Source of the DNA: Bryum argenteum
Lineage: Eukaryota > Streptophyta > Bryopsida > Bryales > Bryaceae
NCBI GenBank assembly: GCA_037043015.1
Contig: CM073324.1
Coordinates: 9,445,013-9,509,012 of the forward strand
DNA: 64,000 nt
Direction of reading: 5' to 3'
The notes beneath the pieces are model-generated. The model saw only the letters and a list, made by a program, of their open reading frames with translations. It made no database searches and was not told the origin of the DNA. A program made the translations under genes and the position numbers. Positions 16,772 through 63,981 of this stretch are shown here, piece by piece. Numbering within the stretch: the first letter of the stretch is position 1; every line of letters starts with the position of its first letter.

Positions 16772-19468
16772 ATGCTCTACAAAACCATGGGTAAGAATCC
16801 TCGGACTTTATGGGTCAATTGGGCATGTTGTACATTGTGAGGTGACGCGGTTGTGTATTGCTTGTGTTGCAGCGGCCGTGAAGCAGCAGAAAGGGCGCAG
16901 CCGGAGCTCGCAGCACTTCCGCGCCAAGGCCACCAACCGGGTGGATGATCTGCAAGGCATGGTATCGGAGCTGCAGACTGCGCGTCGCGAGGGTCGGCTC
17001 AAGGATGTTTCGCTTCTGGAGGAGCAAATGCATCAGATGCTGAGGGAGTGGAAGGCGGAGCTCCGGGAGGTGTCCCCTGCGTCTTCCTTGTTGGTAGGTA
17101 CCACCCCTGTACATGCCCCTCTACCAGTTTCTAGTCATTGTTGCAAACATTTTAAGGTGTGCTAAATTAGGTCTGAATTTTCACAATTGCCTCCCCCAAA
17201 TCCACGCTCTTCAGAACCTCTTCAAGCTTTAGCTTTCTATGATTGGAAACTTAAAAGTAGGTAGCCTCTGTTCAAGCTTGCGGCATTAAATTTTGCATGA
17301 CAATTTTCTGTGATCGATTGGAGTATTCACACTTAAGGTTGCGGCATTGAGTGAAACTTTGGAAGTGGAGAAGGAGCAGGTGGTATGTAATTGGGGCATC
17401 TGTCTTGATGTCTCAGGCACCTGTGTTTTTATCTTGGTGTCGTATTGGAGTTGTGGTGGTAGCAACGTGTGAATCCTGTTTGTTGTGTGCAGCAATTCGC
17501 AGCAGCAAGCCCATGCAATTCCGAGCTCTCATCTGACATGCAGAGGCTGTTACAGCTGCACGACGAAGACGATGATGCCACCAGCAAAGCTCCCATGCCG
17601 GAAGATCTGGATCAACAGCAACCTTATAACCGTGATCATAACCAGAACTCGTCTTCTCTTCCGGTAACAATCTCAAGACCCTCTCTTGGAGCTCCCCGCT
17701 CTGAAAATTTTCAAACCTAATTCTGTTGCTCTATTGTACTCTGAGGTCACGCATCTATTTAGAGCTTTCCAAAGGTGTCTGTATTCTTGATCAGTGAGGC
17801 GAACCATGCATCTTCGTTGGCAATGTTCGGTTGGGTGTAAAATAGTCTGAGCGTGTGTTGATGTTGCATTGTAGGACGCAGTGGTGTTAGAAGCTTTTGC
17901 GAGATTAGAGCAAACCCTTCAAGAGGAAGATGAGACTCCACCTGACGTGCAGGCGAGTTCTGAACGATACATCGAAGATCTGATGCAGTCGCCGCCGATC
18001 GGGCCACAGCAAAACCCGATGGTGCATCAGCATTTCGCCATGGCAGCCATGGTTCCTCCGTTGGCAGCGTATCTGCACCCGAAGTGCGCATTGTGGGATT
18101 GCCCTCGTCCTGCTCGAGGGGGCAACGATATCACATTCTACTGCAGCAGCTTCCACGAGGACCTGGCTCTCAACGAAGGCGCTCCCGGCATGTGCCCCGT
18201 TGTCAGGCCCGGTGGTATCGATCTCAAAGATGGTCCTCTCTTTTCCGCTCTAGCTGCTCGAGTGGGTGGTCATGCCGTCGGCATTCCGGAGTTGCAAGGT
18301 GCGGCAACGTCTAAGTCGCCGTGGAATGCTACTGGTGAGTGACTACTAACCCTCGCTTGTCGATTCTTCTAAACCCACTGTCGAGAAGATTTGTCCACAA
18401 GCTACAGAACCCCCTGTTGAGTTCACGTGTTCATAATCTGCTCTACCATCTGGTGAGCCCTTGTCGAGCACTCTCTGAGCTGACATGAGAAGGTATCCTC
18501 GTGGTGCCTTGATTGTTAAGCGAGAGCTAGCTCCTCAAGCTACTTAACCATGAACCATTATCTTCACTTGGGGATTGTCGAAGCTCGACTTCGCTCGGGT
18601 TTTCTGTAAGCTTTTCATTGGCCATGACTTCGCTCTAACTAATTTTTAGTTGGCTATGCTACTAATAAAAAACCTTTTTAGTATGTGTGGTGTGTGCTCA
18701 CAGCTGGGCCTAACTATGAATTGACTTCATTTCAATCAAGGGGCTCGTGTTCCTGAATGGAGGTTTCTGTCAGTCATATGAACTTTGATAGTGATGTATA
18801 ATCTTGCTGGGTACTACACATTCTTGTGTAAGGTGGTGCATGATGATTCATGTTGATTATGTTGGCATTCCGGAGTTGCAGATCTGTTTGATGTGTCTGT
18901 TCATCCTGGAGAGACGTTGCGGGAGTGGCTATTTTTCGATAAGCCGCGGCGGGCTTTCGAGAGTGGAACACGGAAGCAGCGGTCGCTACCAGATTACGGG
19001 GGGCGCGGATGGCACGAGTCGAGGAAGCAAGTGATGAAGGACTTGGGAGGGTTGAAGCGCTCCTACTACATGGATCCGCAGCCGGAGGGTTTCAACGAAT
19101 GGCACATGTACGAGTACGAGCTCTCGACGTGCACGGATTGTGCACTATACAGACTGGAGCTCAAGCAGGTGGACGCTTCCAAGAAGAATGGCAAAGCCAA
19201 AATGGCGACGGTGGATACTTCGGTGGCGTCCTTGCAGCATCAAATTGGACGTCTGACGGCAGATCTGTCGCAGTTCGAAGGCCAGACAGTCATGGCTTAC
19301 AACAACGGGGAGGGACCTTGCAACATGCCTACCAGAAGCGGAAGAGGCAAGTCTTCCCAACGAAGGAGCATCAGCAAGAATGCTGGCCCAGGACCTTTAG
19401 TTAGTGCCCTGGCCAAGCAGAACTCCATGGAGCACGTCCCGTTTAACTACACTGCCGAGCTTCAATGA
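16772..19468 (+). CDS. VOZ: VOZ (vascular plant one zinc-finger) transcription factor
   Basis: Exons in phase: 16772-16790, 16873-17093, (17338-17382, optional), 17493-17663, 17875-18334, 18882-19468; 500 residues with the optional exon, 485 without. Family blocks are clear: NRVDDLQGM and the [13 protein letters not shown] helix near the N-terminus, then the C3H zinc finger with [10 protein letters not shown] and YCSSFH (Cys about 223, 228, 242 and His 246), then [51 protein letters not shown] and [13 protein letters not shown] of the NAC-like DNA-binding domain. VOZ proteins bind DNA as dimers and in Arabidopsis act with phytochrome B in flowering and stress control. The first in-frame ATG after a stop at 16745 was chosen; a second in-frame ATG is at 16787. 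A Ser/Arg-rich tail follows the domain. Confidence 0.95.
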
Positions 19469-39500: not shown

Positions 39501-42500
39501 TGGCCTTTATACTAGACACTCAATGTTGTTCCACTGTTTTTAGATATCAGTTTCCTGTATGATTATTGAAGATACTGGCGTGTGTATTTCCTATATCAGG
39601 TTGTAGTTTATGGGTGACCGGGATCCTCAGAGTTTCATATGGTTACTGAGCTTGAGCAATTTACTATCTAAAATCATGGTTCTGATTTTAAAACGTAGTT
39701 CAACGCTGTGAGTTTTGCAGATAGGTGAACAGGTTCTTGCGGATTATATACTCTGCCATCTGGATAATCCTCGTGATAAATTCAACTTGCTCGTGTATTC
39801 CCTTTTACCCTACCTAATCACTACTGTGTATATCGTTCTGGTCTGTCTTGTTTCCAGTTTCATTTCAGCATATGAAGTTTCGACGACTGAGGCAGAAAAG
39901 CACTGTATGTGTAGTGAACCGGTTCCTCTCTTCTAATGGTTCATATACATTACGTGCTATGCAGGTTCATGTTACAGAAGCTCTTCGCACTGGTTGACGG
40001 GATGGCAAAACCAGATAATGCAGATGCGTTGCAAAATCACGAGATCTTACTTCCGGGTCATCTGTTGACAATCGTGGTCAAGGTTTGTTTGAAACTTCTT
40101 GAATTTTTTTGCAACAGCAGGAGATCTATGGATATATTATAGCTGGTTGTTTTACTTCACTGGACTTTGTATTCAGGACTGCTGCACAGGAAATAGCTTT
40201 TTGATTCTGACATTACGATCCACTAAAGAGCGTTTGTCTCTGATTTGGAAGTTCAACTGAGGATGCCGTTTTTGTGGATTGATTGTAGGATCGAATCCAG
40301 GATTGGTTGTTGAGACTTCAGGGACAACTTGTAAAAGAGATGAAGGACAAACCCGCCGAGAATGACCTGCAACGTACGATATAAACTCTGTCCTCTTGTC
40401 TTTCTTCTTGCACGTAATTAGGCTTCGTAAGAACGTTTTTGGATGTAAGCTGGTAGGACTTATGCTTGTAGCAGTGAAACATGTGCAGAAGGTATTCGAA
40501 AAAGTGCCACCTTCTGATGTGAGCAAGAAGGTTGAGTATCTTCTTAACACTGGCAATCTCGTCAGCCAGTCAGGGCTGGATCTGAATCAGGTACTAAGCA
40601 TTTTTGGTGTGAACTGTTTCACTGATTATCAGGTGGCATAAATTTTTTCAGTTGGATCTATACGTGACGTACATGTTGCTTTGCTTGTGCGTGCAGGTTG
40701 GAGGCTTCACCGTCGTCGCAGAGAAGCTGAACTTCCTTCGATATATTTCTCACTTTCGTTCAGTACATAGAGGTGCCTTCTTTGCGACGCTTCGGACCAC
40801 CACAGTTCGAAAGCTACTTCCTGAGTAAGTGGCCTTTATTTTCGGTGTGTTTGTTTGCAGTGCAAGACCTGTACCATCGTCCTAGTGTTTTTTGAGGTAT
40901 TAATATTGTAGGCAGCTCGCAGCAAGTGCATTCCTAGTCTTCGTATCTGCTGACCTGGAAAGACTTTCACTACCTCGATGCAGATCATGGGGATTCATGT
41001 GTCCTGTCCATACGCCTGATGGATCACCGTGTGGTCTGCTCAACCATCTTACAGCTGCTTGTCGTAAGCATTTTTCTCTATTAACATTTTTCGTCTTGCA
41101 GTTACCTTTAGTACACTTGTTGAGTGTCATCAAATGATCTGAATGAGTGAACAAACTTAGATTCGGAAATAAGTGGAGCGGATGACGAATTGCCTTATGT
41201 TCAACCGTTGTGCCACGTGGGATGTTGACATTTCTGAACTGATCATCGCAGAAATTTCATCCGATGTGGATGCACGGGGAATCAAGAAGGATCCTATTCA
41301 GATTCGCAAGGCAGTAACCAAGATTCTGGTCAACCTAGGGCTCGTCCCAGTGAACCCGAAATTGTCAAATATGGCTCCGCCAAAATATTTGACAGTGTTG
41401 CTAGACGGTTGTGTTATCGGCCATGTGGCGACCGGAACGATCCCTACTGTCGTTGATCATCTTCGAAGACTTAAAGTAGTCGATAGATCTGAGGTATGAG
41501 AACACCAATGGGCCTCTTTTCTAGATTGACCCTCATGAGATTGGAAGAAGACTGAGTTGATATGTGTATGCAGGTTCCAGCAGATATGGAGATAGCCTAT
41601 ATTCCATGCACATCAGCAGGGTCATACCCTGGTTTGTATCTCGCCACCACACCCTCGCGTTTTATACGAAACGTGAAGCAAATGTTTGGAGATGGTAGCT
41701 TGGAACTTATTGGGCCCCTTGAGCAGGTCAGTGAGTCAACATTCTGCATTTACACAATGTTGTATTGTCCATCCGCTGCTGCCCCGACTCTGGAGGTTAT
41801 GGTTATATCTCAAGCCTTAGAGCTTTTCTTTTCATTGAAATTGTATCCTAAGAAGCTGGGCTTTCTGCAGGCGTACATGGAGATCAAATGTCCAGGTGGA
41901 AATGAGGCTTCTGGCCCTAATTATATACCAACGCACGAGGAGATAAATGCTACAGCCTTTCTGAGTGTTGTTGCAAATCTTACTCCTTGGTCTGATCACA
42001 ATCAGAGTCCCCGTAACATGTATCAGTGTCAGGTACTGGCTCGACCCCGACCTTTCTGCTCGTGATAGTGCAAAATTGCGCGTTTCAGCTTGATTTTGTG
42101 CGCAGTAGTTTCATAATGGTCTTTGTGTTACTTCACTTTGAGTGCCCTATTGACGTGGAGGATGGTTTTGTACAGATGGGAAAACAAACAATGGGGTTCC
42201 CTGCTCAAGCTCTGCAACATCGTGCAGATAATAAGATGTACCGAATCCAGGTATTAGAAATGTGTTGATCTCTTAATTCCTGTATTCTGCGTTCCCACGT
42301 TTAACTTGCTTTCAGGCTAAGTTATGTGCTTGCTGAACATGCCACGATTTCTCTTGTGTTATTAGCTTTCAGTTTGAGCTTTTATAAGAATGTACTTATG
42401 GTTAAGACTGAAATTGTATGCTTTGCTTGCAGACTCCGCAAATGCCAATTGCGCAGACAGGAGCTTGGTCCAAGTACCACATGAACGAATTTCCAACGGG

Positions 42501-44558
42501 TACTAATGCCATTGTTGCTGTTCTTGCTTACACGGGGTAAGAATCGACGCTACATGCTTTACTGTACTATTTTCTACGATCATGTCAACAGCATTCTTGG
42601 TCTCATTGTTGGAATTATCGATCAGGTTCGACATGGAGGATGCTATGATATTGAACAAGTCATCTGTGGAGCGAGGGCTACATTATGGCCAAGTTTACAA
42701 GGTACGTATATTATCTGCACACATTTGTTGCATCTTCAAAAGACAGGAAATTCTTGAAGCCTTCTTTTACGGGACTGACAACTAATGTGCGTGAATGCAG
42801 TCGGAGACAATTGATTTGACCGATCTTCGACAGCGGGGAGATGGCATCACAAATGTTTTTGCAAGGTCCGGTGCCATGGCAAGATTTAAGGAACAGGCGG
42901 ACAAGTCGGCGAACTTCATTGATGTTGATGGTCTACCTTACATCGGACAGGTAAATAATTCGAAGTGCAAATCCTCTCGGTGAAACATTTGAAGTGTAAC
43001 TTTACCTGATTTTTTTCGCTTGTGACCTAATATCAGGATGTTATGTGCAGACCTTGGCCGATGGAGATCCGTACTGTAGTGTTTTAAACAAGATGACAGG
43101 AGTGTCAAAGTTGTCAAAGTTGAAAGGCTCTGAAGCTGCCATTGTGGATTATGTGGCTGCTATCAATACAGGCAGTAAAGATCCTCTTCAGAAGGTGACA
43201 ATCCGCACTCGGCATCCACGATATCCGCAAATTGGAGACAAGTTCAGTAGTAGGCATGGACAGAAAGGAGTGTGTTCACAACTGTGGCCGGATGTGGATA
43301 TGCCTTTCTCCGCTGTGACAGGGATGCGCCCAGACATCATCATCAACCCCCATGCCTTCCCTTCACGTATGACAATTGGCATGCTTCTCGAGTCGATGGC
43401 TGCTAAGGTGGACCTTCTTTCTTACTTTTGGATGTTCATATCATGCTCTTTCTTCACATTCTTTTTGCTTATAAGTCTTTGGTTTCTGTCAAATTTCTTA
43501 ACATGACAATCGTAGCGTGTCCTTACAGTACGGGGAGAATTTCTCATTACAATCTGCTTGTACATACCATATGGCATGTATTTTTCAATCAAGCAAGCTC
43601 CAATCCGATATTAGGGTTATTATGAATGAAGTGGAAATGTCTCCTGAAACTGCAGGCGGGTGCGCTGGATGGTAAATTCAAAGATGCAACTCCCTTTAAG
43701 AAGTGCGGTCCGGAAGGAGATGGAAAGAATTTCGCCGATAAAGGAGGGAACGACGGGAGCGCAGAAAGGTTTGGGAAGGAAATGAATGCGCATGGATTCA
43801 ATTACCATGGGACTGAAGTCATGTACAGTGGTGTCTACGGCACAGAGTTTGTTTTCGAAATCTACTTGGGCGTGGTGTATTACCAACGACTGCGGCACAT
43901 GGTGTCTGACAAGTACCAGGTACAGACCCTGAACTCGATATCAATGTAGAAAACATGCACTTGTAAGGTCTTACACTCACAGCGAAAACAAAAAAATAGA
44001 GTTTCGTGGTGAAATCTCCTCAGGCCCTGCACTTGATGTCAATGTAGAAAACATTCCATGGGGCACTTCAAGCGCTTCAATCATATATAGAGCTTTGTGG
44101 TAAGATTTGTTTTACTCTTCGGGCTGAACTCTTTGGCCTGTAAATGTTTTGCTCAGGTGCGTTCAATGGGGCCTGTGAACCCAGTAACGAGACAGCCAGT
44201 GAAGGGTCGTAAGGTAGGAGGAGGCATTCGGTTCGGAGAGATGGAGCGTGATGCTCTGCTAGCGCATGGAGCAGCATATCTATTACACGATCGTTTACAT
44301 GCATGCTCCGATTATCACACGGCCAATGTGTGCCGCACCTGTGGAAGCTTACTGTCAATAGTACCGCTGCCAACGACGAGAGGCACCCTGGGATCTCTGG
44401 GTCTTGGCATTCAACAGGGCGGGAAGAAGATTTGCCGCGTCTGCAACAGTAGTAAGGGCATCGAGACAGTGGCCATGCCGTTCGTGTTCAGGTATCTTGC
44501 TGCTGAACTGGCGGCCATGAACATCAAGCTCGAACTGACTCTCTCAAAAGAACTCTAA
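36557..44558 (+). CDS. NRPA2: RNA polymerase I second-largest subunit (RPA2/RPA135)
   Basis: Twenty-six exons join in phase to 1203 residues: 36557-36806, 37204-37286, 37509-37628, 37863-37939, 38217-38280, 38401-38471, 38692-38769, 38985-39030, 39113-39290, 39435-39490, 39721-39794, 39965-40082, 40289-40373, 40472-40590, 40697-40824, 40984-41063, 41252-41493, 41574-41726, 41871-42032, 42176-42250, 42433-42536, 42626-42701, 42801-42950, 43051-43407, 43656-43919, 44157-44558. It forms half of the active centre of the enzyme that transcribes 35S rRNA in the nucleolus. Seen: protrusion start [24 protein letters not shown], fork part [39 protein letters not shown] (about 787-805), [12 protein letters not shown] (about 925), [13 protein letters not shown], and clamp zinc Cys pairs at about 1129/1132 and 1163/1166. 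Pol I-type length and absence of Pol II/III signatures support the call. The first intron is AT-AC. Confidence 0.96.
36807..37203 (+). other. AT-AC U12-type intron of RPA2
   Basis: The intron starts ATATCCTTT, the exact U12 AT-AC donor, and ends CAC. A branch site CCTTAAC at 37188-37194 lies about 10 bases before the end, as U12 introns require. No GT donor exists in the exon where the family alignment breaks, and this cut keeps phase: TTG CGA T joins TG TGG GTT. All other RPA2 introns are GT-AG. Confidence 0.9.
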
Positions 44559-48927: not shown

Positions 48928-49430
48928 CTGAAATATCACACACGCATTACTCAGAATCGGAATATGGCCGATTAGAAACACCCTCGGAGGTAATTGCTGC
49001 CACTACTCCTCTCAACCATCGCCAATCCATTTGAAGGCAGCATGCAAGTGAGTTCCGCAGGGGCAATACCGTGGCCATGATGTGTACAGCAGCAACGTTG
49101 GTGTAATACTCCACCCATCTAAACCCAATCTGCATGCTCCATCACTAATAAAACATTCCTCGCAGAAAAATGCAAACTGAATGTGAATCTTTCAGAGCAG
49201 AATGTGAGACCTAAGCGTGCTAGAGGATTCATGCGACAATGGCATTAGGTGTTCAGTAGGAAAAGCGAGGATGTGGAGGCATGATGATCCCTTACGTTTT
49301 GACTCCATGCTGGCGACGGGAGGGGGTACAAGAAGGGCGAGGTGATGACAGGGAAATATACCTTTCTCGGCCTTTTGGCTAAGATCAAGTGTAGTATCTG
49401 TTCTTATCAGTTTAATATCTGATATGAGGA
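48928..49430 (+). repeat. Segmental duplication, copy 1 (contains the intact U2 gene start)
   Basis: It is matched by 49915-50405 in the same orientation. Shared words include GAAATATCACACACGCATTA, ACTCCACCCATCTAAACCCA, GATTCATGCGACAATGGCAT and CGTTTTGACTCCATGCTGG. Copy 2 has scattered substitutions and small indels. Confidence 0.9.
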
Positions 49431-49552
49431 TCATCGATCCCTACGATATTAATCTCATTTTTCTCGGGTGCGGGTCTATGTGGTAGCTTGCTGCCTGGAC
49501 TCGCGCGCGTCGCCTTGGTTTTGCACTACTTCCTCGGCAGGCGCAGCCCTCC
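49358..49552 (+). ncRNA. U2: U2 spliceosomal snRNA
   Basis: The first 70 bases match the near-universal U2 5' domain: ATACCTTTCTCGGCCTTTTG, then the branch-site recognition element GTAGTA, then TTCTTATCAGTTTAATATCT. Stem IIb follows (GGATCATCGATCC), then the Sm-site region ATTTTTCTCGG, then a stem III that folds (GCGGGTC with GACTCGC, inner GGTAGC with GCTGCC), then stem-loop IV with loop TTTGCACTAC. U2 pairs with the intron branch site in the major spliceosome. The usual plant upstream element (RTCCCACATCG) and a good TATA box are not evident, so expression is uncertain. The 3' end is set by the end of stem IV. Confidence 0.93.
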
Positions 49553-49914
49553 TTCCTCCGAAGGGAACCAATTTAAATCCAAACAGGAAATGATTCTGCA
49601 CTGAGAAGAAGGTGACTCTTTTCTTACAAACATTGACCAATCCAACCACGCGCTGAATCATGTATTTGGTCGCTGATTCGCTAGTCGGGCAGTCAAGACC
49701 TACTCGCATGAATGCCTCGATGAGGAACTTTCAGAGCACTCGACCTCCTCGGACTAAGACCACCTGTGTGCGTTCAGAGTCCAAGGCTTCAATTCAATCG
49801 GGAGCAGGTCATGCTTTTGAGCTTATTCTCCGTCGTTTTAAAGATTTGTTTGTGGGAGTGTGGGACTACGTCAGGTTTCTGAGATCTCTATTGTTTTACG
49901 GTATGAAGTTATGC

Positions 49915-50405
49915 GATGAAATATCACACACGCATTATTCAAAACCTGAATATGGCCGATTAGTAACACCCTCGGAGACAATCGCTTTCACTACTCCTCT
50001 CAACCACCGCCAATCCATTTGAAGTGGCAGGGGCAATACCGTGGCCACGATCTGTACAGCAGCGATATTAATGTGAAACTCCACCCATCTAAACCCAATC
50101 TGCATGCTCCATCACCAATAAAACATTCCTCCAGCCTAGAAAAATGCAAACTGAATGTGAATCTATCAAAGCAGTATGCGAGACCTAAGCTTACTAGAAG
50201 ATTCATGCGACAATGGCATGAGGTCTTCAGAAGTACAAGCTTTAGGGTAGAGGCAACTTCAATACCGTACGTTTTGACTCCATGCTGGGGACGGACGGGG
50301 TACAAGAAGGGCGAGGTGAGGAGCGCATCGCACGATCTTGTCCATCCTTCTGGCTAAGATCAAGATTATTTAGTATCTATTCTCATCAGTTTAAAACCTG
50401 ATATG
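49915..50405 (+). repeat. Segmental duplication, copy 2
   Basis: This is a diverged copy of 48928-49430, beginning about 1 kb downstream. It carries the same upstream DNA as the intact U2 gene and stops matching soon after the middle of the U2 5' domain. Confidence 0.9.
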
Positions 50406-50406
50406 C
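50332..50406 (+). pseudogene. U2 snRNA pseudogene fragment
   Basis: It retains TTCTGGCTAAGATCAAG and TCTCATCAGTTTAAAACCTG, recognisable as the U2 5' domain. The 5' end is eroded, the branch-site element is changed (TTTAGTA, with an insertion before it), and stems IIb to IV and the Sm site are missing. It is not functional as U2. Confidence 0.88.
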
Positions 50407-53380
50407 GTAGCTGTGGAAAAAGTGCACTTTTTTATTAACGAACATCACAAGACAGTGATTTCAACATAAAATGATCAAATCCTGTTTTTGGAGATTATAT
50501 CAAAACCAAAGTAACCTTAGTTCCCACAGGGCTCAGCAGTCGCTATGTGAAAAGAAGAGTGCACTTTTTTTGGTAAAGAACTGAGAGTATATGGTGATTC
50601 TACACACGTCATTTGGAAGTCAAATTGAAACAAAAATATGATGAGGAATGAACAACAATGTTTGTTGTAGTTTGAAATTTGAAGTGATTGAAATCCTAGA
50701 CAACACAAATCATATTGTGAGAGTTACATCACATCCATTTTGAAGCAAAACTATTTGGTATGGTTTTGGTGTGGTCTTGAGTTTATTTCAATCTTTCAAA
50801 ATGTTATTGTGAAAACAACTATTTTGAGGGATGACTTAATGGGTTTCAGGTAGTTCATGTGGAGGCTAAAAGCTGAGTAGTAGAGGAGATTGTTGCACTC
50901 TACTACAGTGAGATTAATCAGGAGATTATTCAAGTAGTAGATAGAAGGTTCAAGGCCCACCGACATCATATAGATTTGGAGTTTTGATTTAAAAGAGGCG
51001 AGAGGAAGAGAGGGGGGCAAAGAGTAGGTCACAATCTCTATATCCATATGGAAAGATTGGTGACACAAAGAGAGAGGGGAGGGTGCATTGCCTCTATCCA
51101 GATGGAGAGATTAAGTTGTTGTTTTATGACAAGTGGCCAATTTATTCCTATGCAACGACCACTTATCTGTAGGCTAAGGCTTATGCCTTTTTTTCCTTTC
51201 TATCATGATTTGGCCACTTCAGTGTTCTCACTGAACCCAATTGGCAAACCATGACACCTCTAGTAGGACATTCTTCAATTTCATGTTGCTATTTGAGGTA
51301 ATCAATATTCATATTAAAAAAATCAAGATTAATCATATCTCCTATGGAGGCTTGAAATTGTAATGAAACTTATTTACTAAGATGAATTTAACCCCTAAAC
51401 ACGCCAAATGTAGAAAACGACATTTTGGATGGAAGGCAACAACTTTGAAGAGCCATAACTTCTTCATTCAAGGTGTGTTACGGATGAAAGTACTTTGGTT
51501 CTAAAGGTCCCAAATCAAGTCTACTTTGAGGTAAAAATTGCAAACCCATACAAAAAAGTATGAATTGATAAACTTTAGGGAAGACAGATCTTATTTCGGG
51601 TTGTCAAGCATGGGGCATGTTTTCTTATTGGAAGTATTTTAATCTAGATATTTTTGACATTGGATTTGCAATGATGTTTCGTCGACAATAAAAGTGAAAT
51701 AATTGATGATATCTCCTTCAACCACTCTTGGATTTCAACTTTATTTTCTAGGATGACTTAGCGTCTAGTTTTAGTGATATATACATTGAAATGATCGTAG
51801 ATATTTCAAAGATAAGGCATGAATTCTATTGCAAATGGTCTAGTTTTGGATTATTTTCCCCTTGTTAATTTTTGGCAATTTTCACCATTGCAAGGCTAAT
51901 ATTGGAGCCAAGAAATTTTTTGTGATATTTTTTTGGGCAATGGTGTTATACTGTTTTTGAGCTGAAGGTGAACAACTTTGTAGTTAATGAAATTTTTATT
52001 GCGATTGGTTTGTTGGTAGAATTTCCACTCTAAAGTAACAATGATAAAATCTTGCAGTTTGTTTTTAGAACTAATACGTTACGATCTCTCAATCTATGAG
52101 GCCTCATGACTCAAATGTTGGTTCACATGACCTACAACAAGTTTATTAAAAGTTTGTAGAGTTCACATCTTGATAGTTTATCTCCATTTTCATTTAGGAC
52201 ACTTTTAAAAAAAATGTGTTTCTTGGCTAAAAATAGGTTGGGAGGTTTAGGGGTTGAACAATTAGAAGAACTTAATCTCTAAACATATTTTGATCTTGAT
52301 CTCTACAAGAAGAAATAGTTCGTTGGATTTATTCTTCAGTAATTTTATTAGAGGTCACAACACGTACCAATGGTGAGAGTTTTAACCCCTTCAGGTGCAA
52401 ACATATTATTCCTACTTAGCAACTACACATTTGAGTTTAATATGTGTCTCACCACAATTTCATTGTAATCGGGTGCTATTCTACGTGCTATTTTGTCACA
52501 CCAGACCTTACATTTGTACATATACCGATTGGCTGTAGTATCACAACCCCTTCACATACATTGTCACTCATTTTCCATAATATCACCTTCAAATTCTGGT
52601 ATATCACATGGTTTTGGAACTACAGTTGAAGTGTCCCATTGTGACGACATGATGCCATTTAACGGAATTGTCTGCATCTACAAACAAATGGCAGTTTACA
52701 GACAGGGTCGAAGCAGTAAAAGCAGGCGAGTGAAATCAACATATGGAGCAGGGGCAAGGTTAAAAAAGAAAGAGAAGAGTAGTTGCAGCAACAGAGGCAG
52801 CTGCGCCTTAGGGGCTGTTCTGTACCTCCTTCGGCCACCGCCGGATACGCCATGCTTTTTCAGTGAGCTTTTTCGTTGGGAGACCAGCTAGCAAGTCTAA
52901 TCGTCCACCGTTTGTACTGTACAGTCCATGTACAATTGGCGTGCTTCATAACGCCACGACACTACTGTCTCCTCTCTAGATCTCAATCTCAGGTTCGTAT
53001 GGGCTGTCTGCAAGCGCACCAATCTCCTACTACAGTGCCCATTTTGACTTTGAGTGACGGTGCAAGCACGCAACTTGCAATTGGACCATCCCATGCCTCC
53101 ACTATACAATAACCCCTGCCTCCCAAAGACTTACGGAGCTGCACGAAAGGTTACTGCAGCTGATTCTCCAGGTAGAGGTTCTGCTATGGAACACATGTAT
53201 TCTTTCAACTGATGATTCATTGATCGGTTCGATCGAAGAAAAAAAGAAAACTTACAGAGCTAGAACGTGCGTACATCGACCAGACTGCAGCGAAGTAAAT
53301 CTCATTCATCGGCTTTTGACAAATCCCTGGACGTCGCTGAGTCAACCCCCTAAAAGTGGCAAGATCACACAAAATCTGCA
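50407..53380. other. AT-rich spacer with dispersed repeat
   Basis: 51370-52140 is a copy of the repeat family also found near 34680-35400 (same strand) and near 26900-27060 (opposite strand). 52640-53380 is less AT-rich and has short open frames without motifs. No gene was recognised. Confidence 0.5.
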
Positions 53381-53382
53381 AC

Positions 53383-56300
53383 ATGTACAGGACTTCCATT
53401 ATGAAATGTTCTGATTCATTATGCGATTAGCCACGATGCATGCGGGGAGTAGGGTAGATATGTAGTGGCAGCAGGGTCCACCGCGTGCTACTGTAATTCC
53501 CACCGAGAATGCCCATTTGCTGAAGCCGAGAACCTGACATTGATTCACTGACCGGAGCTTGGCATGGGTTTCCTGCTGCAATTCCGCGAACCAGCACCAC
53601 TGTTCTGATAAGAATGAGGGACTTATAAATTCCTCTAGCGAGGATCACCCAATTCTAGGTGCTAGGTAATCCTGATCGTAACAAACAAGATTTTGCGTGG
53701 ATGCTGGCTCCAACAACCATCATCATTCCGACAGAAGAAACAAACAAATAATGGTGAAAATCTTTCGAATTGTGACTCATCAATCAATTTCCGGACGGTC
53801 TGAGCGGAAGTTTGATCGTGTCGACAAAGAGGAGGGTGACCCTTGACTGCGGAATTGCAGTACTTTTACGGTAACCCCAATAGACCACGATGACGACCTG
53901 TTAGTAGGAGGGATGTGCTTGTCATGCAGCAGGTTGTCTGGACACCGTCCGTGACAGCCGATTGCGGCCAAGATCCTCAAAATCTAATCTCCTCGGTTTG
54001 CGGCGCAGGTGTTCTCCAGCTGTAACACAAGGCTGCTACGAGCAGAACACGGGAGCTCGCCGTGCAACGAATGTCAGTCGTGTCCACCCTTATAAAATGG
54101 TTCCAAGTTCCAGAAGCATGCACCGAGCAGAGACTTTCTCATGTTTGAGAAATACTTGAGAGGACACCCATGCATTGTCAGGCACGGCAACAGCCTTCTT
54201 TCTGAGATGCAAGCATTGAAATGCAGAGGCAGCCCTCTCATGTGTTTCTTGGATATTGGACAGTCTCTTCCGAAGCTTGTTCCAGCTCGAGCTACTTCTT
54301 CATTGTCATCGGGTGAAAATGTGCAAATCGAAGGTTTACGAATCTGGCATACATGCTTCATTTGAATAAACAGATTCTGAAACCCAATAGACCACAATGA
54401 CCTAGTAGGAGGGATGTGCTTGTCATGCAGTAGGTTGTCTTAGCACCGTTCGTGACAGCCGATTGCGGCCAAGATTCTCAAATCTAATCTCTTTGGTTTG
54501 CTGCGCAGGTGTTCTCCAGCTGTAACACATGGTCGCTACGAGCAGAATTGGGGAGCTCGCCGTGCGGACGAATGTCAGTCGTGTCCACCCCTATAAAAGG
54601 GTCCAAGTTCCAGAAGCATGCACCAAGCAGAGACTTTCTCATGTCTGAGAAATACTTGAGAGGACATCCGTGCATTGTCAGGCACGGCAACAGCCTTTTC
54701 GTTTATTGAGGCAAGCATTGAAATGCAGCGGCAGCCCTCTCATGTGTTTCTTGGATATTAGACAGTCTCTTCCGAAGCTTGTTCCACCTGGAGCTAGCTT
54801 CGTTTCTTAAAATCGGCTGAACATGTGCAAATCGAAGGTTTAGGATCTGGTATACATGCTCAAATTTGACTAGACAGATTCTGAAGCATGTTCTGACCTC
54901 TGTATGCTCACTCCTCTTCAACATTCATCTGACCTCTGTGTGCTCACTCCTCTTCAGCATTCGTCGTGTCGCGACCGTGCTCTATCGTTGGCCTTTCGGT
55001 TATCTTCCTGTTGTGATCAAGTAGCAATTAAATAACCTTAATCGCGTTGTAAGGTTGCAGCTTAACCGTGCAGAGTCAAGAGCGGTTATGTTGTAAACTT
55101 ACCTGCGGTTCAGTGTGTAGGGTTTTGTGTGGGCGTGCCTCCTTCATATTTCAGATTGCTAGCTTAAGTTATTTGCTCTCTGAGTCTCTGGTCGGTGATT
55201 CATGCTTCGATCCCTTCCAGAACATACTAGAATATACATACACTAACTGATGCAGACTATAGCCACATTTTCGTAATTGGTCTCGAGCAACGAGAGTTGG
55301 ATACCATCATCGGTGTCTGCAGTAGAAGATCAGGACAACACAGTCAACTACGGAACACCTCCGTGAGCTAGAGGTTGACCCTGGGGAAAGATAAGTAAGT
55401 TTAAAGTTGTGACAAGACCGTTCGAAACCTGCTACCCATCTGCCAGTCGATGGATTGGGGGCCACAATGAGAAGAGGAGCACGCCAACAAAGTTGGACGC
55501 TTTCCATCATCTCCCATATTTTCTATGGAGGTAAAAGTTCTCAAAGAAGATGACACATAGCACTGAACTAGAGGACAGTAACCCGAGTAACTCTTGCTGG
55601 TATTTGATTCCTTCAGTGCCATTGCACACTCTATGGTGCGCCTCGATCATTGCTCATGTCTGTGTGCAAACAGGAGTGGTTGATCCCATGTCTTTTCTCC
55701 AACTGTTGATGATACAATGAAATCTTGACTGCTATTTCAATTGATACCATTAGGGTTCTGCAACATACATACGCCGAGCACGTTTAAAATGCAGGTTAAA
55801 GTTGAGCTCAAAACAGTTATTTGGACTTTGAGCAGTTCGGTACACTTGCACTTGTTTTTGAAGTTTTGAAACAAAAACCCTTTGTAGTTCACTGTTCACA
55901 TAGTTTCCCCACATCTTCACCTAGACCATTCTTGCTTTGAGTACTTAAGCAATTATTTACTTCGAAGGAAGAAATCATTCACGCAATGACAAATGTGAGG
56001 GTAATATCATCAAAAGCACCAACACAAGGACCTACATGGTCTGCCTACTTCTCAGTGATACTCAGTGATTCTTGTTGGGACCTTCTTTTCTTTGATGCTT
56101 TGAAAATTTGAAATAATCTTCAGCATTTAGATATTACGTCGCTGATGAGGAGATAATAGTGCTTGAGGTGTTCTTTTAAGTTTTGACTGAAGGAGGAGAG
56201 AGTAATCTGCACTCTACATCCTGAATCGAAAAGAATCTCCAAACTTTTTAAAGTACTTAGCAGGAATAAAGTTTGGAAGTATGTTTGGAGATTGTGATTT

Positions 56301-56833
56301 GCATAGTCGCCAGACCTCTAACCGTTTTTGTGATGAACATAGAATACTACACTTTCTCTTAGAACCTAGCCACTACTACCCTAGAGATAACTTGTGCTTG
56401 TTCTCTTCTCAAAGAGCTTTGACGTACCCAAACAGCAAGCTAGGCCAAGAGCTCCTATCGACCATGGTATAGTTGTCAGCATGTTGGCGTGGCAAAAAGG
56501 ACGGAATGTACTTGTTGGGCACCATAAGCGCTAACCACCAAGCCAAGGCTTGTGGTACCTCATCCTAATAAAATGCCCTAATTCAAACTTGAAAAACCAC
56601 ACTTTAGTAGCACATCACATTCTTGTTTGGGATGAACACTACACAAGAGTTGTCAATTAGCATTAATTAGCCTCTATTTTATTGAAGAAGACATATCACA
56701 TGTACCAATATGAGGTGTAGATATGTGGACTTCAGAATCTCATTCTTATCAAACTGGCATTTTGGACATCTCAGTATTACTGTGGTGTAGCAGGAGACCC
56801 CTAAAACTTGGAAATACCATAATTCAAGATGCA
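53383..56833 (+). repeat. Left arm of a giant inverted repeat
   Basis: Reading inward, this arm matches the reverse complement of 63815-60230 in the same order over almost its whole length. Paired words include GTACAGGACTTCCATTATGA, GAACCAGCACCACTGTTCTG, CTGTAACACA with its partner, GTTGACCCTGGGGAAAGATA, TTGGGGGCCACAATGAGAAG and CACATCACATTCTTGTTTGG. By eye, identity is roughly 80-90 percent with indels. No long coding frame is present. Confidence 0.9.
53879..54893 (+). repeat. Tandem direct duplication (unit about 507 bp) in the left arm
   Basis: 53879-54385 is repeated at 54386-54893 (both begin AATAGACCAC, both contain CAGGTGTTCTCCAGCTGTAA and CTTGAGAGGACA). The right arm has only one copy, so the duplication arose after the two arms were formed or is specific to this arm. 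Confidence 0.9.
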
Positions 56834-59800
56834 ATGTTTGACAGCATACCTACCCTGTGACGTATACTTCCGACCGAACAATCATGCCCATGTATGACAA
56901 AAGTAGATCAATCAGAATTCAAAAGGTTGGTCCATTCTCGCTCTCTTCAAATATAGTCTATTGTGAAAATCAAAGGTACTAATATACAGTCCTGCAAGAA
57001 GTTGATTACACAAGCTAAAGGTCAAGTCGTGCTCAGTCGTATAATTTAACCCATGATGTGGTAGTTTCCAAAGTACAAACCTTGATTCAACGTAACACTG
57101 GGATCCACAAACTACTCAATCCACCGAATAACAATATCATTTGGAGATCGATCCTACAAAAGTGATATGATATTTGCAATCCCTCATTCCATGTGCAGAT
57201 TTTTAACTTCAACTCCAGGATGAAATAAACAGTACGTTGTACCGCAGAAGTACTTCACATGATCTGTCTAAACGCAAACTGAATCATACAATGCATGAAG
57301 AAAATGAAGTTTACAACATCGTGTGCGAGAGTAGTGATTCTGAGGTCAAGAGTGGCCCGGTCTTCATTCTCTAGATCTAACTGATGCAAGTACAAGATGA
57401 TTGATTGCTTAAATTGAGAATCATGATTATTAACAGAATTAGCACGTTAAACAAGCTGATATCCCCATATCTAATTAGAGGTACATCTAATCTTAACTGT
57501 GATAAACAAAAATAGAAAGATCAAGATCAGATGTACCTCTAATTAGATATAAGATACCAACATCAAGACGCTGCAACTGCAGTTTTCGATCGTGCCCTGA
57601 GCTTCAGAAAACCAGCTCAAGAAGTTTCAAAAGAGAATGCTAGATGCAAATGAATGGGATACCACGATGCATGATCGAGTGAAAATCCTTGATGATTGTG
57701 ACCATGGCTTTGGTCGTTCATTATTTGTATGTCGAGTGATATTTGCTCTGGAGTTCGATCGATTCCGTCTTGATCGAGCTAGCTCGACAGCTGGAGAATG
57801 ATCGGGAGTTGCAGTGTAATTCCTTGCCCCGAATCGATGGAGATTGGATTTGGTGAATCTTGAGCGTGGTCATCGGCTGTCAGCTGTTGGTGGCTGCTCA
57901 TACCCACTTGGAGTCAGAATTTAGGCGTGGAGTAAGTTACGTAATGGACCGAGGCACCGAGGCTCTGAGCCCATCTCTTGAAAGAAGTCATGCATTTCAC
58001 ACTTTCTGCGACCACGTCATGCGAGACGTCACATTCTCCTAGAATCACTTCATTGAAAGGCTTATTCTTCCCTAGTATACTGACTTTCGTAGATTTGTAG
58101 GAATCTGATATATGAAGTTCAAATGTTATCTTTCTTTTCATTTTTACTTAAAACAATCAATTATTTATCAATTGAGAGAAATATAATCGTGAATAAATGT
58201 AGCCAGCTACTTGGCGGAGTTTGAGTTTATGTGCTTCTATCGATAGTCTTCATGCAACTAAACTCTTTGTTATCAACTAAACTCTTTGTTACCAGCATAT
58301 GTGGTTGGAGTAGAGGAAGCAAGTAGACGTAAATGGTGTCAGTTGAGCCCTAGTTGCAGTAGTGAGTCCAACACCTTCATGGCTCCATGGCAGCTGCTCC
58401 CTTCGTCAATCCCTACCCATGTCTTCTGAGCGCCTAACCCTGTTGCCTCCCTAGCTCCGACGCCATCGGTTGGTTCCATCATGGTGTCACCGCCGCTGGT
58501 GGGTCCTGTCTTCTAGGGCTGCCAGCCTTCCTACACACCGGTGCACACTCCAAATATTTATGTTGATTTGTGAATCCCTCACTAAGTCACTATTTCTAAC
58601 TATCCTTACAATTTTTTCTCTCTAACAACAAAACTCCAAAGTTTCATGTAAATAAAGTGTTCCTTCAACTCATATTTGGATATTTATATGTCATTACATC
58701 AATTATTGGTCTAACAAACCCTCTTGTCGTATACACTATGCTAACACTATGCTAGTTCATTCTAAAACCACCATATCTTTTGAAGTGTCATTTGTACAAA
58801 TTAGTGTAAACAACTCAATTCTCATGAAAATCATGTCAATCAAATTTATAGTCATAAGGTCTTATAGATTGTAAATTTGTAAATTTGTAATGTACAAGTA
58901 GTCAAAGAAGATTTCAAACTTTCTTCATTCTCATTTTCCACAAAGTGGAAATATTAGTAACAAACCGGTTGTAACAAAAAATATAGTTAAACCAAAATTT
59001 GTCAATCATCATCTAAATAAGTAACCTAATATGAAATAAATCATAACAAAAATTTATTGTCCACGGTAACATTTGGCCAAATGTTCACTAATAAACTAAA
59101 TCAATAGTTGGAACTTAGGCAGCCTATGAACTTCTCAAGTTTTACAAGAATATGAGAGATGCGATCTTGAACCTAGTGTCCTAGCCTAAACCTCCCACCC
59201 TTAAAATTTTGTAATTATGGGGACATTCTTGATCCAAGAATGTCCCAATAATAGTCAAATTCATTATATTGATACTTTCTGCATAAATTAAAACTTTCTC
59301 AACATGAAAATGTGCACAACATTTTTTCGTGCCGGTTGTCAAGCGTCGCAATCAATTCTTGGACCCAAAATGACAAGATCAATTTAAATTAAACTCAAAT
59401 AATACAAAAGTATCATACATCAATCTTGTTCATGAATTTCCGTATGATTGAGACATTCTTACTTTCTTAGACAAAGTATACAAATTGCTTGTAACTTAAA
59501 AGACACTATCACAATTCTCAATTTGGAGAAATTGCGCTTACATAAGCATGCTTTCACGTACCCCTACTTTAATCCACTTTATACTCTTTCTAGTTTCCAG
59601 AATAATTAGCCAATCTCATCATTTATTGTTCAGAACATTCTATTTGACACTCTTGTACTTTACAAACCTAACAATTTCTAAAGTGTCCTTTGAAATCTGA
59701 AAAGCCAAAGAGATGAAAACAACACTCGTGGTTAGCATCGCCGTAGCTTACTAGCCAGTCGGGTCCGGAATTCCGGATCCCGAAGAGTCACTTACCTTAA

Positions 59801-60229
59801 TTCCTAGCGAAATATCTGCTCCATTGTATTCTTCCTACGAGAGTAATGATTCATGTTAGTGCTACAGAAAGCATGTAAATCCATGCAAGCAAGCATTGGG
59901 AGTCGAGATCCGAAAGTTGAAAAAGCCTCCGATCCGAATTATTTATCTATCAGTGGCTAATTGGGAATGTTTAAGAGATCGGACCAATACAATTGCGGAT
60001 ATCGAATCACTGATCGTGGTTCCTCGAGCAATTTTGTTCCCGGTAACCGTTGCTACAACGAAGCAGCCAGCCTCCTGCAAAAATGCATCTGACAGAGCAT
60101 TTCATGATGGAAGTTCTGTACAAGTTGCAGATTTTCTGTGATTCTGCAACTTTTGAGGGTTTGATTGGAAACTAAAGTCGTGAATGAGGCGTTATATTGA
60201 CGAATTACTTGGCTGCAGTCAGTACATGC
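56834..60229. other. Loop between the arms of the giant inverted repeat
   Basis: AT-rich, without a recognised gene. It includes a perfect short inverted repeat at 57468-57551 and a 14-bp palindrome TCCGGAATTCCGGA near 59764. Words near 58840-58880 resemble the reverse strand of the dispersed family (CATAAGGTCTTATAGATTGT). Confidence 0.5.
57468..57551. repeat. Perfect 22-bp inverted repeat with a 40-base loop
   Basis: 57468-57489 and 57530-57551 are exact reverse complements (core CTAATTAGAGGTACATCT). An RNA over this site would form a hairpin with a 22-bp perfect stem. It could also be the end pair of a very small transposon remnant. Confidence 0.85.
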
Positions 60230-63200
60230 AGGGATTATGTTGAATCATGGCTTTTCCTTTAGGAATCTCTCGTGCTACACCACAGTAATACTGAATGTCC
60301 AAAATGTGAAAGAGATATAGCCAGTTTGAAAAGAATGAGGTTCTGAAGTCCACATATCTACACCTCATATTGGCACATGTGATATGTCTTGTTCAATAAA
60401 ATAGAGGCCAATTACATTGATGATATAAAAAAGGTGAATAATCAAAATTACCTCATGATAGGCCAGTTCTACACAGTGCTATCAAATAACTATTGCTTTT
60501 TTTTTTTAAATAAAAAAAATAAAAAAATCAGTTAACAGTTCAATTTACGTGTAGATGCCGTCTTTTTTTGAGTACCACTATCGTTCTTCTACTTAAATTT
60601 GAATTTTTCGGCGATTCAAAATCAATAAAATCAAATTAAACTAGCGCATCACATACAAAACAAGTATATAGATGGATAAAATAAAGAACACAAGAGTTGT
60701 TATTTAGTGGTACAAATGTTAATTGCGAACTATAACACTAAATGTTAGCATCTAGTGTTACAACACTAATTGTCAGACCATTGTACTAAATGTGTGAGCA
60801 TGCACAATCTCTTGCAAGTGGAAGAATTTATTGAAAGTGGTGCAATTGGTGGCTTGCACAAAAGACAAGCCGGACCTTGATTGCAATGGCGGCCCAAAGT
60901 AAACACTAAGAGAGTTGAGAAATAGTGTTCTTTATCAAAAGTTACGCGTTACACTAATCTCTACGTAACAGTAATTAACAACTCTTGTATAGTGTTTATT
61001 CCAAACAAGAATGTGATGTGGTCCTAAAGTGTGGTTTTCTACTTTGAATTAGGGAATCTAATGTTATGATGAAGAACCACAAGCCTTGGCTTGGTCATTA
61101 GGACTTATGGTGCTTAACAAGGAATATCCGTGTTCCTTTTGCCACACGTGTCCACGTGGTGATGAGGACCATGGTCCTCCCAACTATATATGATAGAGGC
61201 TCTTGGCCTAGCTTGTTGTTTGGCTGTGACAAAACTCTTTGAGGAGATAACAATCATTCTTCATCTCTCAGGTAGTAGTAGCTAGGTTCTATAAACAAGT
61301 GTAGTGATCTATGTTCATCACAAAAAGGATTAGACATCCAGCAACTATTGGAAGCATGACCTCCAAACATACTTCCAAGGGTAGCTCAAACAAAGACTTT
61401 AAATATCTCCTAACTTTAAATAGTTTGGAGTTTCTCGTTGATTGAGGATGTAAAGTTCGACTCTTCCTCTCCTCTTTTAGGGAAAATTTAAAAGAACACC
61501 TCAGGGAATATCATCTTCTTATCAGCGATGAAATTTTTAATTCTGATAAATGATTTTAATGAATCAAAGAAAGAAGGTCCGACTGAGAAGTAGGCATACC
61601 CTAGGTCCTTGTGGTGAAGCTTTTGAAGATATAACCCCACATTGTCATTGCGTGAATGATTTATACTTTGAGAATAAATAATTGCTAAAGTATGAGGAGA
61701 TTTAAAGCATGAATGGTCTAGGTGGAGATATGGGAAAACTATGTGATCTACAAAGGGTTTTAGTTCCAAAACTTCAAAAACAAGTGGGAGTGTGCCCAAA
61801 GTCCAAATTACTTTTATGGGCTCAACTTTAGCCGACAGTAACCTACAATTTACACGTGCTCAATGTATGTATGTTGCAGAACTTAGTGGTATCAATTGAA
61901 ATAGCATTCCATCTGGATTTCATTGTATCATCAGCTGCTGGAGAAAAGACATGGGATCAACCACTCCTGTTTGCACACAGACATGAGCAATGATCGAGGC
62001 GCATCTTAGAGTGTGCAATGGCACTGAAGGAATCAAATACCAGCAAGAGCTACTTGGGTTACTGTCATTGAGTTCAGTGCTATGCGTCATCGTCTTTGAG
62101 CACTTTTACTTCCATAGAAAAATGAGAGATGATGGAAAGCGTCGAACTTTGTTGGCATGCTCCTCTTCTCATTGTGGCCCCCAATCGACTCGCAGATGGA
62201 TTGTAGCTTTCGAACGGTCTCGTCACAAGTTTGAACTTACTTATCTTTCCCCAGGGTCAATCTCTAGCTCACGGAGGTGTTCCGTAGTTGACTGTGTTGT
62301 CCTGATCGATCTTCTACTGCAGACATCAATGATGCAATTCAACTCTCGTAGCTGGAGACCAATTCCGAAAATGTGGCTCTAGTCTGCATCAGTCAGTGTA
62401 TATACATTCTGGTATGTTCTGGAATTGAAGGGATCGAAGCATGAAGCAACAATAGCATGGATCACCGACCAGATCGAGCGAAAATAACGTACGCCAGCAA
62501 TCTGTGATTTGAAGGAGGCACGCAGAGCAAGAGCACACAAAACCCTACACACTGAACCGCAGGTAAGCTTATAACATGACCGCTCTTGACTCAGCACGGT
62601 TAAGCTGCAACCTTACAACGCGGTTAAGATCATTTAATTGCTACTTGATCACAACAGGAAGTTGATCGAAAGGCCAACTTACTGATAGAGCACGGTCGTG
62701 CTAACCGCTCCACGATGAATGCTGAAGACTGAAGAGGAGTGAGCACACAGAGGTCAGATGAATGCTGAAGAGGAGTGAGCACACAGAGGTCAGAACCTGC
62801 TTCAGAATCTTTCTATTCAAATGGAGCATGTATACCAGATCGTAAACCTTCGATTTGCACATGTTCACCCGATGTCAATAAACAAAGTAGCTCCAGGTGG
62901 AACAAGCTTCGGAAGAGACTGTCAAATATCCAAGAAACACATGAGAGGGCTGCCGCTGCATCTCAATGCTTGCCTCTCAGAGAAGGCTGTTGCCGTGCCT
63001 GACAAAGCATGGATGTCCTCTCAAGTATTTCTCAGACATGAGACAGTCTCTCTGCTTGGTGCCTGCTTCTGGAACTTGGACATTTTTATAGGGGTGGACA
63101 GTCGTGCCATTCGTTTGCACGGCGAGCTCCCGTGTTGTGCTCGTAGCAGCTATGTGTAACAGCTGGAGAACACCTGCGCCGCAAACCAAGGAGATTAGAT

Positions 63201-63815
63201 TTTGAGGATCTTGGCCGCAATCGGCTGTCACGGAACGGTGCCCAGACAAACTGCTGCATGACAAGCACATCCCTCCTACTAAGTGATCGTGGTCTATTGG
63301 GGTTACCGTAGTAGTACTGTACTACAATTCCACAGTCAAGGGTCACCGTTCTCTTTGTCGACACGATGAAACTTCCGCTCAGACCTTACGGAAATTGATC
63401 GATGGGTCACAATACGAAAGATTTTCACCATTATTTGTTTGTTTCTTCTGTCGGAATGATGATGGTTGTTGGAGCCAGCATCCACGCAAAATCTTGTTTG
63501 TTACGATCACGATTACCTAGCACCTAGAATTGGGTGATCATCGCGGGTCCACCGCGTGCTACTGTTCTTCCCACTGAAAATGCTCATTTGCTGAGCCCGA
63601 GAACTCTGACATTGATTCACTGACCGGAGCTAGGCATGGGTTTTCCTGCTGGAGTTCCGCGAACCAGCACCACTGTTCTGATAAGAATGAAGGACTTGTA
63701 AATTCCCCTGGCGATTTGACGTCTGCTGCAACTACATATCTACCCTACTCCCCGCATGCATCGTGGCTAATCGCATAATGAATCACAACATTTCATAATG
63801 GAAGTCCTGTACATG
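60230..63815 (-). repeat. Right arm of the giant inverted repeat
   Basis: Reverse-complement partner of 53383-56833. Its outer end (GGAAGTCCTGTACATG near 63800) pairs with the left arm's outer end, and its inner end (GTGCTACACCACAGTAATAC near 60271) pairs with the left arm near 56785. Confidence 0.9.
60425..60968. mobile_element. Probable insertion within the right arm
   Basis: The arms align up to TTAATTA on one side and resume at AATTGGCCTC on the other. In the right arm about 540 bases of AT-rich DNA with T and A runs (60489-60525) lie between them. The left arm has only a few bases there. It may be a non-autonomous transposon. No clear inverted ends were identified. Confidence 0.45.
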
Positions 63816-63952
63816 ATGCTTCTCGTAACATCGTGGCAATCATGTCACTCGTCTCCTTACTTCCCTCGAGAAAGATCAAGACCCTGTCCATATCGAAGAT
63901 TTACTTCTTCATATTTTCCAACGTTTGCAATGTTGAAAACGTTGCTTTTGAG

Positions 63953-63981
63953 AAAACGTTGCTCAAGTCTAGCAACGTTTT
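63953..63981. repeat. Short hairpin with AACGTT-containing stem
   Basis: AAAACGTTGCT and AGCAACGTTTT are 11-base reverse complements around a 7-base loop. Further AACGTT words lie at 63919-63944 and a GCAACG word at the very end of the window. Confidence 0.6.

Follow-up and report, generated by a model that had tools for sequence, protein, structure and literature searches.

What does a large palindrome in a moss genome do when its arms appear to hold no protein-coding gene? The locus lies in a window of 64,000 nucleotides (the whole stretch analysed) from Bryum argenteum, contig CM073324.1 (C4 below), positions 9,445,013 to 9,509,012. A sequence-only reading had proposed either a multi-kilobase hairpin RNA cut into small RNAs or two copies of one non-coding element set in opposite orientation. 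We conclude, with a probability of roughly 0.8, that the units of the palindrome belong to a lineage-specific moss MIRNA family which spread by tandem and inverted duplication and in which each short hairpin would yield a 21-nt RNA. If so, a palindrome may be large and non-coding without being a long-hairpin RNA, and the part that works can be a short hairpin repeated in each arm.

Elsewhere in the window are exons of the RNA polymerase I second-largest subunit (41562-44558), a weak NAC-domain match below its cut-off (18893-19468), and a frame with a Tf2-1-like SH3 domain of a retroelement (480-953). Rfam places a U2 snRNA gene upstream of arm A at 49358-49551 (162.5 bits) and a decayed second copy at 50335-50519 (39.3 bits, cut-off 46), both being part of a 0.5-kb direct duplication at 48929-50519.

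A BLAST comparison of the window with itself bore out the large inverted repeat, with arms that match in order from outer to inner end. Arm A pairs with arm B in pieces that are 81–97% identical: 53378-53474 with 63819-63723 (96.9%), 53638-54381 with 63544-62801 (754 columns, 90.8%, E 0), 54380-56659 with 63304-60972 (2404 columns, 81.1%, E 0), and 56664-56830 with 60414-60237 (82.0%). These E-values exclude a chance origin of the arm matches. Identity is lower in the inner portion of the arms, falling to 73% over 55800-56659. The main parts of the palindrome are as follows.

53378..56830, + strand: unit A, left palindrome arm, with inverted self-matches to 60093-63819
60093..63819, - strand: unit B, right arm, with inverted self-matches to 53378-56830; orientation reversed relative to unit C
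56831..60092, no strand: spacer between the arms, outside the self-matches
53873..54885, + strand: two tandem copies of the core in arm A (53873-54381 and 54380-54885; direct match, 87.8%)
63545..63714, no strand: 170-bp segment of arm B that is inverted when compared with arm A (matches 53474-53641 directly, 90.6%)

The present locus resembles plant inverted-repeat siRNA loci in having kilobase arms of opposite orientation, which could pair with each other if one transcript ran through both, and its geometry (arms of 3.4–3.7 kb, 81–97% identical in pieces, separated by 3.3 kb) would allow a transcript across both arms to fold on itself and be diced along several kilobases. The arms are, however, broken in several places. 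The same-orientation match of 53474-53641 to 63545-63714 implies that a 170-bp piece was flipped within one arm, the tandem duplication of ~507 bp in arm A is missing from B and from the further copy C, and the inner end of arm B carries ~0.55 kb of additional sequence (~60415-60971). Arm B also repeats at its inner end (60093-60164), in inverted form and at 84.7% identity, a 72-bp sequence from the outer end of A (53342-53413).

A third copy, C, oriented like A, was found in the 30 kb that follow the window on the contig, at C4:9511218-9512767 (window-equivalent 66206-67755), 2.4 kb past arm B. With C, which lies just outside the window, the palindrome represents two of three units in a cluster A(+) B(-) C(+). 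The suggestion of two oppositely oriented copies of one non-coding unit thus held, with a third to be added. Together the units contain four cores, A1 and A2 in tandem within A, one inverted in B, and one direct in C. Cores B and C are the most similar (519/529 positions, 98.1%), while A1 and A2 are 90.4–92.8% identical to B and C and 90.4% identical to each other.

The arms look non-coding, as had been claimed for them. Stop-to-stop frames of at least 60 aa are present, the longest inside the arms being 131 aa, and none of these frames, compared by eye, resembles a gene common to both arms. We therefore reject a protein-coding origin, the frames being short and not evidently shared. If the arms are copies of a small non-coding gene, this would explain the missing protein-coding frames.

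An alternative origin in ordinary transposon pairs was considered through genome searches of the 258.8-Mb assembly (25 contigs); these DNA searches skip very common words, so all match counts are lower bounds. Queried with 54000-54500, the genome returned the cluster and one 40-bp match ~0.77 Mb away on the same contig, in a locus we call D (L008). Within these lower bounds, the core is not dispersed and matched nothing beyond the cluster and D's hairpin arms, which disfavours a MITE or other dispersed transposon, for which many copies of the core would be expected, and with it the idea of ordinary transposon pairs. Of 26 matches that one such search gave away from the cluster, 25 overlap a single short repeat.

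56515..56560, no strand: short dispersed repeat in arm A

By eye this repeat is tRNA-like, and we take it to be SINE-like. The sole distant relative of the arm part downstream of the hairpins is at C2:5786643-5787122 (L035, 69%); hairpin B finds no counterpart in it at E 0.01, and this paralogue is rejected as a hairpin copy since it matches only the downstream stretch. Another dispersed repeat, at 51388-52255, also occurs downstream of hairpin D and, in the corresponding place, before unit C. It gave at least 86 matches from the 40 candidates scored out of 6492, and its identity to the scored copies is mostly 75–81%.

Each of the four cores in the cluster has a TATAAAA box 38–40 nt upstream of a stem-loop of 136–140 nt on one strand. 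Those within the window are listed here with the results of exact folding against 200 dinucleotide shuffles.

54091..54097, + strand: TATAAAA box of hairpin A1, by sequence, 39 nt before the stem
54130..54267, + strand: hairpin A1, candidate microRNA precursor (-55.7 kcal/mol, z -5.3, 0/200 shuffles)
54592..54598, + strand: TATAAAA box of hairpin A2, by sequence, 38 nt before the stem
54630..54769, + strand: hairpin A2, candidate microRNA precursor (-61.7 kcal/mol, z -7.0, 0/200 shuffles)
63084..63090, - strand: TATAAAA box of hairpin B, by sequence, 40 nt before the stem
62915..63050, - strand: hairpin B, candidate microRNA precursor (-64.8 kcal/mol, z -6.5, 0/200 shuffles)

Folding energies of the four cluster hairpins span -55.7 to -64.8 kcal/mol. 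Hairpins C and D have z scores of -6.5 and -4.8, and for all five hairpins 0/200 shuffles folded as well. We also scanned both strands from 51300 to 68000 in 150-nt windows with a step of 30. The unit hairpins at +66480, +54630, -62910 and +54120 ranked 6, 10, 11 and 15 among all windows (z -7.6 to -5.1), and the sense strand folded more strongly than the antisense at all four. Strong folding is not specific in itself, since the top signals of the scan lie elsewhere: in the spacer at 57450, and between B and C at 63930-63960.

The spacer signal corresponds to a nearly perfect foldback at 57466-57551, the strongest fold of the scan. By DNA search (a lower bound) it occurs only here, and it has seven G-U pairs on the minus strand against one on the plus; it could be a young hairpin small-RNA gene. 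The second signal falls in a stretch between units B and C, 63860-64100, which extends past the window end, folds strongly and is rich in AACGTTGC.

Locus D shows which parts of the unit persist outside the cluster. It is a complete homologous hairpin at C4:10266346-10266469 with its own TATA box 47 nt before the stem. Against B, 37/40 positions of the 5' arm and 32/40 of the 3' arm are identical, and for either arm 0/300 shuffles aligned as well. The loop (28/300 shuffles as good) and four flanking 100-nt segments (60–240/300) gave no such signal. The TATA box and the two stem arms are thus preserved in D, whereas its loop and flanks are unalignable above shuffles. A DNA search of the genome with D as query matched only the four cluster hairpins, again as a lower bound. 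The contrast recurs among the four clustered cores, where 4/80 positions vary in the hairpin arms versus 61/416 elsewhere (Fisher p 0.018). Over the 31-pair stem in five loci, 150/155 pair cells are standard and 5/155 broken. Only one compensatory change, A-U to G-C, was found in the 31 pairs and 87/500 shuffles reach as much, so covariation taken alone is weak.

This pattern bears on the possibility that the units are segmental duplications of dead or transposon-derived sequence that serve no function. Dispersed repeats in and beside the units would fit such an origin, as would arms that are rearranged and partly decayed. The core itself, however, is not dispersed in searches that give lower bounds, and its hairpin arms show less variation than the remaining positions and, unlike the loop and flanks, persist in D; we regard dead duplication as highly improbable. 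The pattern also bears on the long-hairpin locus. What is conserved is the pair of arms of the short hairpin, every unit carries a TATA box and a short hairpin of its own, and unit C and the dispersed D lie outside this palindrome. Unlike an inverted-repeat siRNA locus, then, the present one is a three-unit cluster with interrupted arms and a separate short hairpin with its own TATA box in every unit, and dicing along a multi-kilobase hairpin appears unlikely. The earlier idea that small RNAs arise from the palindrome survives as to the likely product, though not as to the precursor. Since a TATA box and a hairpin are present in every unit, and since D stands outside any palindrome, the likeliest source is the ~140-nt stem-loop of each unit.

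We next consider which RNA such a MIRNA-type hairpin would release. The longest run that is invariant among the four units in the 5' arm, 54146-54166, has a length of exactly 21 nt and U as its first nucleotide, with variable sites on either side at 54145 and 54167. This suggests that the run marks the product, but given the few variants it is suggestive only. Since the 3' arm has an even longer invariant run (30 nt, 54228-54257), invariance by itself does not decide in favour of the 5p strand. The 5p block begins 16 nt above the common stem base, internal mismatches included, and RNAfold adds one or two further pairs beneath that base in A2, B and C. Each of the five hairpins leaves 2–4 of 21 nucleotides in the 5p strand unpaired; plant MIRNA duplexes have a limit of about five mismatches. 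Exact 5p and 3p 21-mers were found by pattern search of the genome at the five loci only. In locus D a single position of the 5p block has changed, and eight have in the 3' arm; at position 8 of the proposed guide D carries G, unlike UGAGAAAUACUUGAGAGGACA.

54146..54166, + strand: predicted 21-nt 5p product of A1, invariant in four units; strand choice inferred
54646..54666, + strand: predicted 21-nt 5p product of A2, the same 21-mer as A1
63014..63034, - strand: predicted 21-nt 5p product of B, the same 21-mer as A1

In PMC8688358, precursors of the canonical base-to-loop mode are described as having a bulge 15–17 bp below the duplex that directs the first cut, and a lower stem that tends toward conservation. 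The candidates, with a lower stem of 16 nt as compared with 15–17 bp, resemble the base-to-loop DCL1 MIRNA genes of plants in being single hairpins with a lower stem of ~16 nt beneath a 21-nt duplex (PMC8688358). Since this lower-stem geometry fits base-to-loop processing, we predict 5p UGAGAAAUACUUGAGAGGACA as the most likely guide, with the 3p strand as an alternative. Further likenesses to plant MIRNA genes as presented in the same source are stem arms conserved over the loop, a TATA box, and non-coding surroundings (PMC8688358). The candidates differ from known plant MIRNA genes in having no Rfam match above cut-off, and their TATA box is only 38–47 nt before the stem, which implies that the hairpin would begin almost where transcription does.

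We infer the following course of expression. RNA polymerase II would use the TATA promoter of each unit and produce a non-coding primary transcript, near whose 5' end the hairpin of 136–140 nt would fold. DCL1 would cut this from base to loop, leaving a lower stem of 16–18 nt and then releasing a duplex of ~21 bp. The 21-nt guide, likeliest 5p UGAGAAAUACUUGAGAGGACA, would then silence mRNAs in trans. In its history, an older duplication may have placed the single copy D ~0.77 Mb away, and local duplication would have given the four clustered copies, with A1 and A2 in tandem, B inverted and C direct. The palindrome would then be a by-product of gene duplication and not a working part. A variant with two products is rather improbable; in it, a 21-nt microRNA from each hairpin would be joined by siRNAs from overlapping A and B transcripts or from read-through double-stranded RNA, and the cluster would regulate its own dosage.

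A TATA box close to the RNA start is also compatible with some other structured non-coding RNA built on this hairpin, such as an unlisted snRNA-like or protein-binding RNA, and a U2 snRNA gene lies 4 kb away. The long paired arms with a free loop count against this, being typical of MIRNA, as do hairpins without an Rfam match above cut-off, and a structured RNA other than a microRNA seems to us an unlikely reading. In Rfam 15 no match to the hairpins exceeded the cut-off, and the sole weak one, to mir-74 over hairpin D, is at chance level (19.1 bits vs a cut-off of 57, E 1.9). A known structured RNA is rejected, as the U2 matches of Rfam lie outside the arms and no family passes its cut-off at the hairpins.

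We regard the MIRNA-type family as a candidate addition to the plant MIRNA genes, a known kind, new meaning that it was found neither in Rfam 15 nor in open full texts. A search of the main text of these open papers with hairpin sequence strings found no microRNA paper. In Physcomitrella, 18 moss-specific miRNA families have been reported (PMC1838911), which the present hairpins resemble in their moss host and in forming an apparently lineage-restricted family. In the main text of that paper the candidate arm strings occur once, inside a miR477 variant (PMC1838911).

Possible targets were sought across the genome. With up to three mismatches, the 5p 21-mer matched 24 places vs 13 in a reversed control, and the 3p 21-mer 18 vs 8. 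Six of the 24 are the five loci themselves (five exact, one on the opposite arm of D), as are nine of the 18 (five exact, four on the cluster's own 5' arms), so most of the excess over controls is accounted for by these loci. A pattern allowing wobble gave at least 101 places vs at least 170 in the control. Nineteen loci from the 5p search (L059-L077) were scored by a plant target rule. The best-scoring 5p site examined is in L071 at 1501-1521 (C6:5146423-5146443; score 2.5), within a frame that has no Pfam match, and the 5p site in L072 (score 5) lies where an LRR frame ends; we claim neither as a target. No target stands out among the examined 5p, 3p and wobble-pattern places.

If correct, the MIRNA reading would add a microRNA family that has no Rfam entry to a probably desiccation-tolerant moss, and would catch a MIRNA family amid local tandem and inverted expansion, with the older copy D revealing the parts kept by selection. 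Elsewhere in the assembly, a light-harvesting gene (L105) matches chains 8htu_9 and 7xqp_9 at 430 and 424 bits, ahead of the next chain at 344, and for a second gene (L104) 8htu and 7xqp chains again rank first, though by a small margin; both entries come from Physcomitrium, and chain 9 is Lhcb9. In the same assembly, weak matches to the chlorophyll-binding family occur in tandem groups at C5 8.16–8.41 and 14.73–14.76 Mb and at C2 25.06–25.09 Mb. The ELIP family is expanded in desiccation-tolerant plants, and one of these genes (L106) looks like an ELIP, as would fit a desiccation-tolerant moss.
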